Below, one piece after another: positions 2,987 to 8,165 of a stretch of DNA of 64,000 nucleotides. Position 1 is the first letter of the stretch, and each line of letters opens with the position of its first letter. Origin of the DNA: Akkermansiaceae bacterium (GTDB lineage Bacteria; Verrucomicrobiota; Verrucomicrobiia; Verrucomicrobiales; Akkermansiaceae); contig JANRFH010000006.1 in NCBI GenBank assembly GCA_030725745.1, positions 43,120 to 107,119 of the forward strand, in the 5' to 3' direction. Both the position numbers and the translations under genes were made by a program. The notes under the pieces are model-generated. The model was not told the DNA's origin. It saw only the letters and a list, made by a program, of their open reading frames with translations, and made no database searches.

Positions 2987-4282
2987 ATGCTAGTTCCATG
3001 CCCCCATTGCAAAACCGACCTTGATGCCTCGCCGGATCACTACGGTCAGACCGTCCAGTGCCCCGCTTGTAGCGGTCGCCTGCAGATTCCTGCCGCAGCA
3101 GACGAGCCAACAAAAACCGATCACTCTGGCACTGCACGCCCGAATCGCTCCGGCTGGGAGGAAACCGATCATGCCAACGTCGATTTCGGAAAAAGCCTCC
3201 TCATCGGAGGTGCCATCACAGTGGTCTTCCTAGGCGCGCTTTTCCCCTTTAAGGACAGTTTCGGAGCCATATTTATTAATCGTGGATGGGTCAACTGGGC
3301 GGAAACCTTCCTGTTCATATGGGGCATGACCATCCTCTTCATGAAACTGAAGAAAAATCAGCATCAGGAACGCGCCACCCTACTTGAGCTTTTCCCAGCC
3401 CGTATCGGATCGGAAATCCACCGCGAAAATGTCGGCGAGTTCATCGACAACATCTACAAAACCCCTCTCACCCTGCGCGACAGCTTGTTCGTCAACCGTA
3501 TACGCAAAGCCCTCGAACTCTTCGAAAAACGCGGCGACAATTCCGAGGTCGCTGCCTTCCTCTCCACCCAGTCAGACATCGATGCGAACCGCTCCTCAGG
3601 CTCCTACTCGCTGCTAAAAGTCTTCCTCTGGGCCATCCCTATCCTCGGTTTCATCGGCACGGTCATGGGGCTCTCCGTTGCCGTCGGCTCGCTCGCCATG
3701 GGCGACAACGCCGACCCCGAAGCACTCAAACAATCCATCAACAGCCTCACCGGAGGCCTTGGTGTCGCCTTCGATACCACCTTGCTCGGCCTCATTCTCT
3801 CCATGCTGATGAGTTTCCCCATGGCAGCTGTGCAGAAAAAGGAAGACGAGACACTCACCCTCATCGACGCCTTCACCACAGAGAAACTCCTGCCCAAGCT
3901 CAACGATAGTAAAAACCCCGTCTCAGATAGCCTACTAGAGCAGGCCGATAGCATCCCGCAGCTCGTCGCATCCCTCGCCCGCGCCCACGAGACTTTCCTA
4001 GTCAACCTCAACGAATCCACCCGCCAACTCAAAGAAAGCGGGAAGTTCATGGAAGATCGACTCAACAAGCATCAAGAAATCGTCCAAACAAACTTCACCA
4101 CCGCCGTGGAAAAACTCACCGATACCAGCGGCGAAGTCTTCATCAAATCACACATCGAACTGGCTAAGACCTTCGATAAAATCGCCAACGGCATCGACCT
4201 CATCAACCACGCCCTCCGCGATCTCGGCCAAAACAAGATCCCGGACAGCGCGAAAAGGAAGAAGGGCTTCTTCAGCAGGTAA
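2987..4282 (+). CDS. MotA/TolQ/ExbB-type proton channel with N-terminal zinc ribbon
   Basis: This 431-aa inner-membrane protein is predicted to form the ion-channel ring that drives a MotB/ExbD-like partner. Residues 1-35 form a small zinc ribbon with C5-x2-C8 and C25-x2-C28. Hydrophobic spans lie near 70-88, 104-119, 212-236 and 257-282. The last two carry the family signature: a GFIGTVMGLS segment, then GLGVAFDTTLLGL. A long helical cytoplasmic tail (about 290-410) follows and the C-terminus is basic. The N-terminal ribbon is not part of ordinary ExbB, TolQ or MotA. It is followed after 15 bp and then 6 bp by two single-span coiled-coil genes, so a three-component complex is likely. The force-receiving partner is unknown. 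Confidence 0.85.
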   Translation: MLVPCPHCKTDLDASPDHYGQTVQCPACSGRLQIPAAADEPTKTDHSGTARPNRSGWEETDHANVDFGKSLLIGGAITVVFLGALFPFKDSFGAIFINRGWVNWAETFLFIWGMTILFMKLKKNQHQERATLLELFPARIGSEIHRENVGEFIDNIYKTPLTLRDSLFVNRIRKALELFEKRGDNSEVAAFLSTQSDIDANRSSGSYSLLKVFLWAIPILGFIGTVMGLSVAVGSLAMGDNADPEALKQSINSLTGGLGVAFDTTLLGLILSMLMSFPMAAVQKKEDETLTLIDAFTTEKLLPKLNDSKNPVSDSLLEQADSIPQLVASLARAHETFLVNLNESTRQLKESGKFMEDRLNKHQEIVQTNFTTAVEKLTDTSGEVFIKSHIELAKTFDKIANGIDLINHALRDLGQNKIPDSAKRKKGFFSR

Positions 4283-4297
4283 CTCCTTTCCCGACCC

Positions 4298-5107
4298 ATG
4301 CCCAAGCGCAGAGACAGCAGCGGAGAAGGGGTTTCCCTCTTCCCTTTCATGAGCATCTTGGCATGCCTCATCGGTATCCTCACGCTCATGATCAGCGTCA
4401 CCATGCAGCTCAAGCAGATGGACAATGCCGGACGCACCGAAGAAGAAAAAGCCCGCGCCATTGAAAACCGCGACCTGAAAAAGGAAGCCGAAAAAATCGA
4501 AGCGGACATCAAAAAGTTAGAGGAAAAACTCGAACGCGAAAATGCCACCGCCTCCGAGCTCGCCAAACTGGAAGACCGCAAGATCATCCTCCGCACTCAG
4601 CTGGACGAAGCACAACAGGATCCAGAGCAAACGGATGCAGAGCTCCAGAAACTCATCGAACAACTCAAACAAGAAACCGTCGCTCTGAAAACATCGCGCC
4701 CCCCGTTGAACAAGCGCTTGGAAGAACTCAAAGCAGAGCTCGCGAAACGAAAAGACCCCCCGAAACCTGTCGAATCCGTCGTCATCAAGCCCGGTGGCAC
4801 AGGAGTTAGCGCAGCTAGCAGGCTGTTCTTCGTAGAATGCAATTCCTCTGGAATTGTCATCCTCAGTGGCCCGCTCACTTCGAAAAGCATTGCAACAAAT
4901 GCCATCGCCAAAAGCACCGACTACCGCTCCTTTGCAGAAGAAGTGAAACGCACCCGAGACTCCATGATCCTCTTTCTAGTCCGCAGATCCGGCAACGATG
5001 CCTATCGATGGGCGGCTGGCGTCGCTGAATCCGAATTCGAAGTCCTTATCGGCAAGCTCCCTGTCCCAAACGACGGGAAAATCGATCTATCACTTTTCCA
5101 AGAATAA
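4298..5107 (+). CDS. single-span coiled-coil protein, ExbD/MotB-like subunit lacking the membrane Asp
   Basis: This 269-aa protein has a short basic N-terminus, one membrane span (about residues 14-38), a long charged coiled coil (about 45-155) and a globular, presumably periplasmic C-terminal domain. The first 35 residues align without gaps to the next gene product (GVSLFPFMSIL here, GINLDSLMDAL there). The position equivalent to that protein's Asp20 is Ser19 here. By the logic of ExbD and MotB, this subunit could not carry the proton. It lies 15 bp after the MotA-like gene and 6 bp before its paralogue. The family assignment rests on topology and gene order rather than strong sequence similarity. 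Confidence 0.7.
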   Translation: MPKRRDSSGEGVSLFPFMSILACLIGILTLMISVTMQLKQMDNAGRTEEEKARAIENRDLKKEAEKIEADIKKLEEKLERENATASELAKLEDRKIILRTQLDEAQQDPEQTDAELQKLIEQLKQETVALKTSRPPLNKRLEELKAELAKRKDPPKPVESVVIKPGGTGVSAASRLFFVECNSSGIVILSGPLTSKSIATNAIAKSTDYRSFAEEVKRTRDSMILFLVRRSGNDAYRWAAGVAESEFEVLIGKLPVPNDGKIDLSLFQE

Positions 5108-5113
5108 CTACCG

Positions 5114-6229
5114 GTGGCACGCAAACGAAAGAACAGCTCCGACGGAGGGATCAATCTCGATTCCCTCATGGACGCACTCACCAACGTGGTGGCGGTGCTG
5201 ATCCTCGTGCTTCTTCTCGTGTCGGTCGATGCCGGCCGCAAAGTCCAACAATTCCTCGATGACCTAAAGCCAGCCACGCCCGAAGAAGTCATTGCATCCA
5301 AACAGCTCACCGAAGAACTCAAGAAGAAGCGCGAAGAAATCGAAGCCAAGATCAAGGAAGACCCTCCGTCACCCGAGCAGATTGAGGAAGAAAAACGCCG
5401 GATCGCACTTCTAGAGAAAAGCCTAGAGGAAAGTAAAGTCGCACTCGCCGACATCGATAAATTGCGCGAGTTGGAGAAAACGGTTCGCGAAGAACGAGAT
5501 AAGGAAAACGATACCAATACGGCCATACAGTTAGAAATTTCCGAACTTGAGGCGCTCTTGGATGAAACACCGGCTATCAAACCAGACACGCCGACTGTTG
5601 TGAACATCCCAAACAACCGGCCTATTCCAAGCGACGCAAACGTCTATTACGCCATCGCTGCAAAGGAACGCCTTCACATCATTGATCCGGTCACTCCGCT
5701 GAAAATCTTTGACGAAGAGTTTAAGAAAAACCGGCAGGAGTGGCTAGCCCAACGAATCCAACAAAAAGGCGCAGACCGCTACATCTACGATGGCAGGAAG
5801 ATTGCGAAGTATTTCGAAACCTTCGATTGGAAGAACCCTCGCGGGCAAAAAATCGAAATCCGCACCTATCCCACTTGGAACCGGCTCGAATTGGTGATTA
5901 CACCAGACCTCGAAAAGGGCGGCACTCCCACAGAGGAACTGTCTGTCAGGGGCAGTGAATTCTTCAACGCCGCCATCGCACTCAAACAGGATTTCAAAGC
6001 GGTTCTCATGTTCTACGTTAACACCGATTCCTTCCAAACCTACCTGGAAGCCCGGGCTCTTGCGGACAAGGCAAATATCGCCGCTGGTTGGGAGATCAAC
6101 GGATCGCGCGAGTACAAGGTCAGGCTCACTGAGATCGAGGTGAAGCGCCTCGAAGATCCTCCACCTCCTCCAGCCAATCCAGCTCCTCGCCCTCCTGGCC
6201 CGCCTCCCGTGAAGCCTAAGCTGGACTGA
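5114..6229 (+). CDS. ExbD/MotB-like coiled-coil stator subunit with conserved membrane Asp
   Basis: This 371-aa protein starts at a GTG codon. A basic N-terminus is followed by a span with an ExbD-like signature, SLMDALTNVVAVLILVLLLV, in which Asp20 is the likely proton carrier. A long Glu/Lys-rich coiled coil runs over about residues 60-165. An alpha/beta domain follows (about 175-345), and the tail is Pro-rich (PPPPPANPAPRPPGPPP). The Pro tail and coiled coil could span the periplasm, as in TolR or TonB-type partners, but this is inference. It is the last gene of the three-gene operon and converges on the GH2 gene with a 22-bp gap. Confidence 0.75.
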   Translation: MARKRKNSSDGGINLDSLMDALTNVVAVLILVLLLVSVDAGRKVQQFLDDLKPATPEEVIASKQLTEELKKKREEIEAKIKEDPPSPEQIEEEKRRIALLEKSLEESKVALADIDKLRELEKTVREERDKENDTNTAIQLEISELEALLDETPAIKPDTPTVVNIPNNRPIPSDANVYYAIAAKERLHIIDPVTPLKIFDEEFKKNRQEWLAQRIQQKGADRYIYDGRKIAKYFETFDWKNPRGQKIEIRTYPTWNRLELVITPDLEKGGTPTEELSVRGSEFFNAAIALKQDFKAVLMFYVNTDSFQTYLEARALADKANIAAGWEINGSREYKVRLTEIEVKRLEDPPPPPANPAPRPPGPPPVKPKLD

Positions 6230-6251: not shown

Positions 6252-8165
6252 TTAGGGTTTCCACAAGCCTTTGAATACATCGCGCACCATCTTCGGCTCG
6301 CCATACTCGGTGTACATCCCCATGCGTGACCAGCCATTGTTGCCTTTGTTGCCGGTATAGGTCTTGCGGGATCGGTAGTCGGTCAGCAGCCAGTAGGTGT
6401 AGCCAGAAAGCGGCGGGGTGTGCTGCTTTAGGACATCATACTGCCTTTGTAGTAGATCCGCCTGCCAGTCTTCGGTGCCTTTCTGCAACTTGCCGCCACG
6501 TTTACCGAGCCGCGACCATCCGCCGTTTTCAAGGATGATGAGCGGCTTACCGGGATTCTTTTCGGCGACCTCGCGCATGTCCGGATCGAGCAATTCGAAG
6601 GGATCCATGGCACCGCGGTATTGGTTGAAACCCACGGCATCCGCATGCTCGAAGTGTGGCATTCCTTTCGTCGGGTGCCAGGCAGCCCACGTCACCGGTC
6701 GCTGCTGAAAATCATGCTGATCCACCAATTCATGGCCTTTTTTTACGAACTCCTCATACTCATCGCAGAACTGGTGGGACTCATTGTGCAGCCCCCACAT
6801 GACAACCGAAGGATGGTTCATGAGATCCCACAACGCACAACGAGCGAGCGACTGAAAGATCGACTTAGGGTCTTCTGCCTGCGCACCCATGGATTTCTCT
6901 TTGTACCAAAATCCACCCCACTCACCGCACAGCATAATCCCCTGCCGGTCGGCGAGTTGATACGTCAACGGATGGCGCTCGGCGACATGGAGACGGATAA
7001 AATTCGCATCCGCATCGGTGGCCATTTTGAAAAGGGCTTCGTGATCCTGCTTCGTCAGTGCGTTGCCCCGCTTCGGGTGTTCCTCGTAAAAAGCCACGCC
7101 TTTGAGAAACACGTTCTTCCCATTAAGCGTGAAGGTATTTCCCTCAGTGCGAAACTCGCGGATTCCAAAATCCGAGCAGAGCTGATCCTTCACTTCATCG
7201 CCCACACGAAGCGTTGCCTTCAGGTTGTGGACAATCGGCGTATCCGGGCTCCATTGCCCCGCGTTGGGATTCAGTGCCACATCAAAACGAAGCACAGCAT
7301 TCTCACCTGGCTCCAGGTCGAACGGTTTCGGATCTATATCGCCAATTGCATCAGAAGAAATATCGATCAATCCCTCCGCAGACTGCTCTGAATGATTACT
7401 GATACAAACTGCCGCTTCCAAACGTCTCCCAACTGTGCGTATCTGAGTTTTCGCAATCGACACCGGGTTTTCCGTCAGCAGCGAAACCGAGCGGGAAATC
7501 CCCCCATAAGGCCAGTTATCCGGAGCCTTCGGATGGCGGGTGTGCAGATACTCGATCTCATCAAAGCCTTTGCCATTTTCCTTTTCGCGAAAATTCGGCA
7601 GGCGGATAATCTGCACCGCGAGCTGGTTCTTGCCGCTTTTCAAAGACGAAGTCGCATCGATGGAAAACGGCTGCCCACCACCCTCGTGCATCTCCAAAAG
7701 CTTGCCGTTTAGGTAAATCCTCACCCGGTGCGGAACACCTAGAAATTCTAGGCGATGGCGTTTGCCCGCGACTGGCTCAAACTCGAAATCGCGCTGATAC
7801 CAAACCGCCCCATCATACATCGGGGGATTCTTCTCGCTACGATCGCTCCAGTCCCAGAAACGCCCGCCGGGCATCATGTCCCAGCAATGCGGAACGGTCA
7901 CCTCTGTCCATGATGTTTCAGCAGCGATGCCCAAGTTTTCAGAATCAAAACGAAAATCCCACGCCCCATCCAATGACATGCGCTCACGATGCGGGTTCTC
8001 GACACGATCTTCAAAATCCGGACGAATTTCCCCGTAGTGAAACACCACAGGAAAGCCATCGACCTTCTCCGTGCGAATATCCATCGCATGAGAAAACGCA
8101 GGCGTATCAGCGAAATCATCGGCGAAACCGAGGAGCGGAAGCAAAAAAAGGAACAAGATGCGCAC
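6252..8165 (-). CDS. secreted glycoside hydrolase family 2 enzyme
   Basis: This 637-aa GH2 enzyme is probably a beta-galactosidase or beta-glucuronidase type hydrolase exported to the periplasm or outside. A short signal peptide (residues 1-15, ending GFA) leads into the sugar-binding jelly-roll (about 50-230), an Ig-like domain (about 235-335) and a TIM barrel (about 340-637). The acid/base is predicted as Glu462 in WGLHNES, the Asn-Glu pair typical of GH2, and the nucleophile as Glu546 in IILENGGW. Substrate specificity cannot be read from the sequence. It is not next to other glycan genes; the nearest neighbour upstream is a secreted nuclease on the same strand. Confidence 0.9.
   Translation of the reverse strand: MRILFLFLLPLLGFADDFADTPAFSHAMDIRTEKVDGFPVVFHYGEIRPDFEDRVENPHRERMSLDGAWDFRFDSENLGIAAETSWTEVTVPHCWDMMPGGRFWDWSDRSEKNPPMYDGAVWYQRDFEFEPVAGKRHRLEFLGVPHRVRIYLNGKLLEMHEGGGQPFSIDATSSLKSGKNQLAVQIIRLPNFREKENGKGFDEIEYLHTRHPKAPDNWPYGGISRSVSLLTENPVSIAKTQIRTVGRRLEAAVCISNHSEQSAEGLIDISSDAIGDIDPKPFDLEPGENAVLRFDVALNPNAGQWSPDTPIVHNLKATLRVGDEVKDQLCSDFGIREFRTEGNTFTLNGKNVFLKGVAFYEEHPKRGNALTKQDHEALFKMATDADANFIRLHVAERHPLTYQLADRQGIMLCGEWGGFWYKEKSMGAQAEDPKSIFQSLARCALWDLMNHPSVVMWGLHNESHQFCDEYEEFVKKGHELVDQHDFQQRPVTWAAWHPTKGMPHFEHADAVGFNQYRGAMDPFELLDPDMREVAEKNPGKPLIILENGGWSRLGKRGGKLQKGTEDWQADLLQRQYDVLKQHTPPLSGYTYWLLTDYRSRKTYTGNKGNNGWSRMGMYTEYGEPKMVRDVFKGLWKP

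Follow-up and report, generated by a model that had tools for sequence, protein, structure and literature searches.

In the published model of 5:2 motors, two identical axle helices with one acid each alternate, and every ion is accompanied by a 36-degree step, as outlined in passages of PMC9389320. The same passages describe GldL-GldM, in which a long periplasmic shaft stands on a 5:2 motor, and the AglR-AglQ-AglS complex of Myxococcus gliding, where one MotA-like subunit is combined with two MotB-like subunits and where it is stated as not known whether the latter form a heterodimer or homodimers. The proton site of AglQ is reported to be essential (a passage of PMC9120999). ZorAB of the Zorya system is also a 5:2 motor, whose ZorB carries the Asp and a Pal-like cell-wall domain (a passage of PMC11890865). 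In bacteria of the Planctomycetota-Verrucomicrobiota-Chlamydiota (PVC) group, tolQ with paired heterologous tolR genes is already in print, with a downstream gene for a von Willebrand factor A (vWA) protein and an upstream tetratricopeptide repeat (TPR) gene; the relevant part of PMC12204202 describes such vWA proteins as transducers and has TolA and TonB attached at the side of their motors, and its tolQ/tolR section does not mention a missing Asp. The present study concerns a three-gene operon of this general kind, A-B1-B2, in 64,000 nucleotides of an Akkermansiaceae bacterium (assembly GCA_030725745.1, contig JANRFH010000006.1, positions 43,120 to 107,119), referred to below as the window. 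The operon resembles the PVC layout in that one TolQ-like gene is followed by two different TolR-like genes, and it differs in that A bears a zinc ribbon and the first TolR-like gene lacks the Asp; neither a vWA nor a TPR gene was found adjoining it. Among the papers listed by a literature search, with subscription papers and preprints outside its scope, none was seen to describe a one-Asp axle.

The three genes are tightly packed on the + strand (2987-6229), with intergenic gaps of 15 bp (A/B1) and 6 bp (B1/B2). The original prediction of a single operon was borne out, and B1 and B2 stand in order behind A in 62 of the 63 dereplicated loci in which A scored above 370 bits and at least 3 kb of downstream DNA was present. 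The exception, L131 from a metagenome-assembled genome, has B1 and lacks B2, and its DNA past position 7194 resembles transposase remnants by eye. It was also verified that the gap-free N-terminal match between the two small proteins is real and extends much further, the family profiles of B1 and B2 being aligned by hhalign over 241 columns with a probability of 99.1 and an E-value of 1.8e-18. B1 and B2 are paralogues, and Ser19 of B1 and Asp20 of B2 occupy the same aligned site.

The state of this site was read across the zinc-ribbon family. Loci overlap between the two genome collections used (e.g., L035 and L063) and were therefore dereplicated: from 117 A rows that were at least 280 aa long and differed in their cores, any row 93% or more identical to one already kept was removed, which left 97. 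Among the dereplicated zinc-ribbon rows, window included, the B1 site is Ser in 61 of 78 and Asp in the other 17, with no further residue, while the position of B2 Asp20 is Asp in all 75 rows read (79 in total, four without a readable B2). The acid asymmetry proposed for the window operon is therefore real and not a chance substitution. It is not peculiar to this operon, being instead the old, apparently reversible state of a large family. A second acid that had gone unmentioned, Asp16 of B2, accompanies the Ser state of B1 in 59 of 59 rows read and is replaced by Val in 15 of 15 rows with the Asp state. The ion sites of all three proteins could be read in 74 of the 79 rows, the remaining five being L046, L049, L126, L131 and L139; L046 has Asn-Thr-Thr in A and neither B1 nor B2 on its contig. 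Of these 74 rows, 59 are Ser-type (B1 Ser, A Asp-Thr-Thr, B2 Asp16 and Asp20), 15 are Asp-type (B1 Asp, A Asp-Ala-Thr, B2 Val16 and Asp20), and none is mixed.

The Asp-type rows form one clade nested among the Ser-types, with a Shimodaira-Hasegawa-like approximate likelihood ratio test (SH-aLRT) support of 99, and with an ultrafast bootstrap of 100 and an SH-aLRT of 99 in a second tree. When the tree is rooted on the short-A class, the B1 site needs just two changes between Asp and not-Asp, which may be read as one loss and one regain of the acid, the direction hinging on that root; judged from these sequences, the asymmetry of B1 and B2 is old. The Asp clade differs absolutely from the rest in 13 of 1058 alignment columns (A 99, 100, 106, 212, 238 and 264; B1 13, 15 and 19; B2 14, 16, 17 and 37), and all 13 fall in the 210 columns of the membrane segments as set by the analyst. 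When five other groupings of this tree served as controls, they yielded 0, 2, 10, 7 and 0 columns of this sort, of which 0, 1, 0, 3 and 0 lay in membrane segments. Differences confined to the membrane columns of all three proteins are what would be expected if A, B1 and B2 share one pore.

The two types also occur at one chromosomal place. In 13 loci, counted without the short copies L143-L145, genes resembling ribBA and nusB precede the operon, and nine of these loci also have an ftsY-like gene; RibBA and an SRP54-type GTPase are supported by Pfam in L109, and the nusB- and ribH-like genes were named by eye. The RibBA of the Ser-type L109 is 96-98% identical to that of the Asp-type L112, L116 and L125, and A is 69-71% identical; L050 (Ser) and L051 (Asp) share 96% in RibBA versus 71% in A. 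At the DNA level, L109 and L116 are 86-92% identical upstream (leaving aside the first 400 bases), 62-81% within the operon and 80-86% downstream. The same-type pairs L109/L114 and L112/L116 remain mostly at 78-88% DNA identity through the operon, and L109 and L114 have nothing in common downstream of it. Whole operons of the Ser or the Asp type thus seem to have been replaced in place at one syntenic locus. A second operon was found in the genome of the window itself (contig C16, L033:6999-10281), with A 94.7, B1 63.1 and B2 59.3 percent identical to the window proteins. The two copies are close across A and the 30 N-terminal residues of B1 (87%) and B2 (100%), and beyond these identity falls to 40-73%. 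A possible reading is that a single type of motor core drives different periplasmic targets in the two operons; alternatively, the near identity of A could stem from gene conversion.

Regarding its distribution, some match to A at an E-value of 1e-3 was found in 44 of 59 related genomes, and long matches at 5e-58 or better comprised 27 rows from 26 of them. At 1e-20, the A profile matched 92 of 387 genomes of a phylum sample, a count that takes in wider classes and ordinary MotA/ExbB relatives. In a separate scan, the best 80 of 555 confirmed loci are labelled as Verrucomicrobiota groups, except one labelled just Bacterium. Two further classes in the phylum, labelled type II and type III by the analyst, had their ion sites read by pattern. 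In type II, with an A of about 280-370 aa devoid of a zinc ribbon, B1 was readable in 33 and B2 in 32 of 36 loci, and Asp is present in 33 of 33 B1 and 31 of 32 B2 sites. In type III, with an A of about 440-570 aa, B1 was readable in 17 and B2 in 21 of 22 loci; the B1 site is Cys in six, Asn in six, Ala in three and Ser in two, never Asp, and the B2 site is Asp in all 21. The type II operons fit the PVC tolQ/tolR layout. In several of them the next gene encodes a Gly/Ser-rich membrane-anchored protein, in which Pfam recognised a vWA domain in one of the three tested (L190).

Among plasmids, tblastn with the window A retrieved five records, none covering 80% of A. On those of Anabaena and Microcystis all three genes are present, B1 having Ser and B2 two Asp. 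On the Anabaena cylindrica plasmid pANACY.03 (L252:6372-10562), type III-B cmr genes and a CARF-HEPN gene stand directly upstream of the operon and a viperin gene lies about 4 kb downstream, and the Microcystis operon is surrounded by genes for an N-6 methylase, a SLATT protein, a helicase and a DUF559 protein. The original suggestion of a defence system thus gains two plasmid relatives sitting among defence genes and loses the window copy, whose neighbours showed no defence-gene surroundings in Pfam and PADLOC scans. For the cyanobacterial copies, a putative defence link is a lead resting on two cases, with no statistic attached.

The identity of A as a MotA/ExbB channel subunit was confirmed by Pfam, PF01618 being matched over the TM3-TM4 (third and fourth transmembrane segment) core with 42.8 bits against a cut-off of 22.9. 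Hydropathy marks segments at residues 63-97, 204-240 and 253-284, and a fourth membrane segment probably lies near residue 110, by reading of the sequence. The zinc ribbon noted on this subunit is kept in the family, 76 of 79 dereplicated relatives showing a CxxC-CxxC pattern close to the A N-terminus; in a 22-row alignment C25 and C28 are invariant and C5 and C8 are at least 90% conserved. The ribbon would lie on the cytoplasmic side if the N-terminus is inside. Downstream of the pore, the tail of A comprises about 145 residues in the window and more than 500 in three relatives. The A proteins of L132, L137 and L141 are 944, 951 and 813 residues long, and their extended, helical-looking tails end in a similar tip; the A of L121 is split over two open reading frames (ORFs). 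A long tail with a conserved tip recalls ZorA. ZorA2 was the best match of A in the PADLOC defence library (E 3.5e-14), and the NCBIfam ZorA model gave 34.3 bits against a cut-off of 100. ZorB was not among the PADLOC matches of B1 (best 25 of 30) or B2 (all eight). NCBIfam holds models of GldL and GldM, and neither was among its matches listed for the window proteins. In a profile search against solved structures, the tail of A alone was matched, to apolipoprotein A-IV and to ZorA (8qyd).

B1 and B2 each have one hydropathic segment near the N-terminus, and their AlphaFold models start with a single helix, continue in a long helical stalk and end in an alpha/beta domain. The folding alignments were made without L033 and L076 for B1 and without L049 for B2, in which the motif pattern was absent, and without some further rows by choice. 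With the B1 model, Foldseek ranked Escherichia coli TolR first (E 0.013, probability 0.98). VIA-align, which re-aligned 999 Protein Data Bank (PDB) chains for B1 and 995 for B2, placed TolR 5by4 first and ExbD 8pek second for both, with Z 7.6 (86 residues, 3.8 Å) and 6.5 for B1, and Z 8.2 (88 residues, 2.7 Å) and 7.2 for B2; the next-best chains reached 6.1 and 6.0. These are middling values on predicted models, and a Z below 8 may reflect a common arrangement. B1 and B2 are therefore probably ExbD-like by fold, both models showing the layout of a single N-terminal transmembrane helix followed by a presumed periplasmic TolR/ExbD-like fold. The 153-aa B1 of the Anabaena plasmid offers a bridge, matching Pfam ExbD at E 0.0036 with 17.8 bits, below the cut-off of 25.4; the Microcystis B1 (L253) was not matched by Pfam ExbD. 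Within a six-protein set, both cyanobacterial B1 proteins match the B1 profile (E 5e-22 and 4e-15) at its transmembrane start and C-terminal domain and have no stalk. In B1, F17, G26 and R229 are invariant in 51 aligned rows, and position 16 is Pro, except for Ser in two of 77 rows. The long stalks are also kept, measuring 135-151 residues in B1 and 143-150 in B2 across 73 loci, with a difference of at most eight within each locus. In the search against solved structures, B1 matched mostly coiled-coil proteins and B2 nothing convincing.

Compared with ExbB-ExbD and TolQ-TolR, the window operon shares the PF01618 channel subunit and the predicted TolR/ExbD-like domain, and it differs by two B genes, one of them without Asp, by helical stalks of about 100 residues and by the zinc ribbon. 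The Asp of the ExbD/TolR transmembrane helix is present in B2 and in a minority of B1 rows, that of the window not among them. It is judged slightly more probable than not that A, B1 and B2 form one ion-driven inner-membrane motor of the ExbBD/TolQR/MotAB kind with an asymmetric B1-B2 axle. A ring of A subunits, five by analogy, would surround a heterodimeric axle, in which Asp20 of B2 alone, with Asp16 one turn off, would load and release the ion against a Thr ring of A (T225 and T265), and Ser19 of B1 would be a passive pore residue. Since there would be a single acid per axle, five ions per turn and 72-degree steps would be expected, whereas the 5:2 model in print has ten steps of 36 degrees. 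A pair of helical stalks of nearly equal length, with about 146 residues from ion site to stalk end, would bear the TolR/ExbD-like domains toward the cell wall; these domains diverge fast and probably set the target, and the zinc ribbon and the tip of the A tail may act on a putative cytoplasmic partner. The most likely role is the transmission of force or of a signal from the cytoplasm to the cell wall or outer membrane. This proposal is supported by the conserved operon, the paralogy of B1 and B2, the TolR and ExbD likeness of both predicted folds, the confinement of the type differences to membrane columns of all three proteins, the two changes that suffice on the tree, the similar stalk lengths and the conserved core of the second operon. 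It is further supported by the presence of Asp in B2 and its absence from B1 in both cyanobacterial plasmid operons and in each of the 17 type III operons whose B1 could be read.

Several results weigh against it. The joint changes in the pore trace to one branch and amount to about one event, so the Ser- and Asp-type changes are not independent, the Asp-type rows forming one clade. Which partner keeps the acid is, by the sequences read, not fixed in the wider family, as L197 (5304-7033, type II) is a mirror image with Asp in B1 and Gly in B2. The structure models are of single chains, with no complex. The ExbD profile PF02472 misses the window B1 and B2 in a Pfam scan to E 1 and in a whole-genome search to E 0.01, the latter yielding eight matches elsewhere in the genome, seven of them above the cut-off. 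Profile comparison of B1 and B2 with these eight ExbD proteins gave probabilities of 7 and 1 percent. ExbD was also not among the best 25 of 157 families for 51 B1 relatives, nor among the best 25 of 59 for 50 B2 relatives, where single members could be hidden. Foldseek gave no credible match for the B2 model (TolR at rank 7, E 0.4), so its TolR likeness depends on the VIA-align re-alignment. Judged by the refuting condition originally set, a profile search, the ExbD-like pair is thus not supported as stated; the likeness comes from predicted fold and one weak bridging match. Finally, the stalk lengths of B1 and B2 do not covary (Spearman 0.03), and their near equality may therefore reflect common descent; a Pearson value of 0.30 (p 0.01) was attributed to four loci (L121, L132, L137 and L141), and stalk covariation was dropped as a test of the heterodimer.

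A bolder version, in which this would be the first asymmetric ion motor family to be recognised, its one-acid axle an obligate heterodimer, with the acid lost and regained and one- and two-acid operon alleles swapping at one locus, and in cyanobacteria a stalkless, ribbonless anti-phage device beside type III CRISPR genes, is considered unlikely. The arrangement could also be more conventional, with a B2 homodimer as the axle of a two-acid 5:2 motor and B1 as an accessory outside the ring or a cap, comparable to TonB/TolA or an inhibitor. The constancy of B2 Asp20, the lack of an acid in B1 of most lineages and the lateral attachment of TolA and TonB (a passage of PMC12204202) would suit such a role. 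However, the layout of B1 is not that of TonB/TolA: like B2, it begins with an ExbD-like transmembrane segment and goes on to a predicted TolR-like domain. The B1 site has also returned to Asp in rows in which residues of the A and B2 pore changed as well, and type II relatives have Asp in both partners; this explanation is rated a little less probable still. That B1 is a decaying paralogue, its asymmetry being without function, is very improbable: its Asp was indeed lost and the type III site varies among four residues, but B1 is kept in 62 of 63 loci and in the exception L131 as well, its site in the zinc-ribbon set is Ser or Asp in every one of 78 rows, and three of its residues are invariant.

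The operon may alternatively be a Zorya-like anti-phage sensor, whose periplasmic domains feel envelope damage and signal through the ring and the A tail to a cytoplasmic effector. The ZorA match, A tails of varying length with a conserved tip, the defence-type genes beside the Anabaena and Microcystis copies and the swapping of two divergent operon forms at one locus, a pattern conflict could produce, are in agreement with it. On the other hand, no ZorB match was listed for B1 or B2 and no Zor model matched any of nine neighbouring window proteins (PADLOC, E 0.001), so that no ZorC, ZorD or ZorE effector was found there; the neighbours that Pfam could assign serve housekeeping or sugar metabolism, some relatives lie in the ribBA-nusB-ftsY context, and the plasmid examples are just two. 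Neither a phage collection nor two pattern-based viral contig scans gave a match, and a viral or phage origin was also set aside. The sensor is rated improbable for this operon. A general motor for envelope maintenance or transport, comparable to Tol-Pal or Ton and served by a transducer (TonB/TolA-like or vWA) from another place in the genome, appears possible, if still on the unlikely side. It would accord with the anchored Gly-rich or vWA proteins downstream of some type II operons, with vWA proteins acting as transducers (PMC12204202, in part) and with the fabZ-, lpxA-, gspD- or lolC/lolD-like genes seen by eye next to type III operons. No such transducer gene and no Tol or Ton partner is present in the window operon, the L190 vWA query found only short matches in the same genome (E 0.002 and 0.004), and the eight ExbD and eight other MotA/ExbB matches of this genome could serve Ton/Tol duties.

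Both genes flanking the window operon lie on the opposite strand, at 2278-2694 (no Pfam family) and 6255-8165 (GH2). Neighbours assigned to a Pfam family comprise an IPP (isopentenyl pyrophosphate) transferase, RsgA, GH2, SNase, acetolactate synthase subunits and an acetyltransferase, and two further proteins have none; PADLOC gave a match to a GH2 part in one neighbour and to a nuclease part in another. A promoter and terminator scan returned counts close to the shuffled mean. A general operon partner was sought by clustering the neighbouring ORFs of 75 loci, after ignoring many opposite-strand shadow ORFs that had clustered in a first pass, and none of the 14 largest clusters is a general companion of A-B1-B2; the biggest, with 11 loci, reflects the ribBA surroundings of a single group, and others are short-chain dehydrogenases and sulfatases by eye. 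The features of the operon are collected in Table 1.

Table 1. Coordinates of the A-B1-B2 operon and its parts in the window.
Feature	Position	Strand	Basis or remark
Gene A, zinc-ribbon MotA/TolQ/ExbB-like channel subunit, 431 aa	2987..4282	+	PF01618 E 5.3e-11; PADLOC ZorA2 E 3.5e-14
Zinc-ribbon Cys C5, C8, C25, C28 of A (CPHC...CPAC)	2999..3070	+	sequence
TM3-TM4 pore region of A, residues 204-284	3596..3838	+	hydropathy; conserved FIGTV, AFDTTLLGL
D263-T264-T265 of A	3773..3781	+	residue 264 Thr with B1 Ser, Ala with B1 Asp
Conserved tip of the A cytoplasmic tail	4184..4279	+	N407, L410 invariant; G402, L413 at least 90% (22 rows)
Gene B1, ExbD/TolR-like subunit without Asp, 269 aa	4298..5107	+	
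Ser19 codon of B1, ion-site position	4352..4354	+	
Helical stalk of B1, residues 45-152	4430..4753	+	AlphaFold2 secondary structure; stalk length
Presumed periplasmic TolR/ExbD-like domain of B1, residues 165-257	4790..5068	+	VIA-align
Gene B2, ExbD/TolR-like subunit with Asp, 371 aa, GTG start	5114..6229	+	
Asp16 codon of B2, second acid, one turn before Asp20	5159..5161	+	
Asp20 codon of B2, presumed ion-binding acid	5171..5173	+	
Helical stalk of B2, residues 56-151	5279..5566	+	AlphaFold model; stalk length
Presumed periplasmic, enlarged TolR/ExbD-like domain of B2, residues 163-340	5600..6133	+	VIA-align
Pro-rich C-terminal tail of B2	6164..6226	+	sequence

Some further observations were made on the relatives. 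In the type III loci L205, L206, L207 and L208, a gene of about 650-680 aa, beta-propeller-like by eye, lies between A and the B genes. The operon is followed by fabZ-, lpxA-, gspD- and gspE-like genes by eye in the type III loci L196, L201, L202 and L204, and by lysS- and lolC/lolD-like genes in L204. No long A match was among the rows listed for genus g18 of the window's family (genomes of 2.2-3.3 Mb), and this sister genus may lack the system. A plasmid match from Rhizobium has a different layout by eye.

On the best reading of the sequences, with tolQ and paired tolR genes already described in PVC bacteria, what is added here is the one-Asp asymmetric variant with a zinc ribbon. If the proposed motor is correct, one acid per pair would change the number of ions and steps expected per turn, and the finding would be relevant to the question of heterodimers in other two-B motors, AglQ/AglS among them. 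The two cyanobacterial copies beside defence genes point to a putative defence role. Related bacteria holding one- or two-acid versions at one chromosomal spot make the purpose of the second acid testable and, if the reading holds, would show whether alternation is needed.

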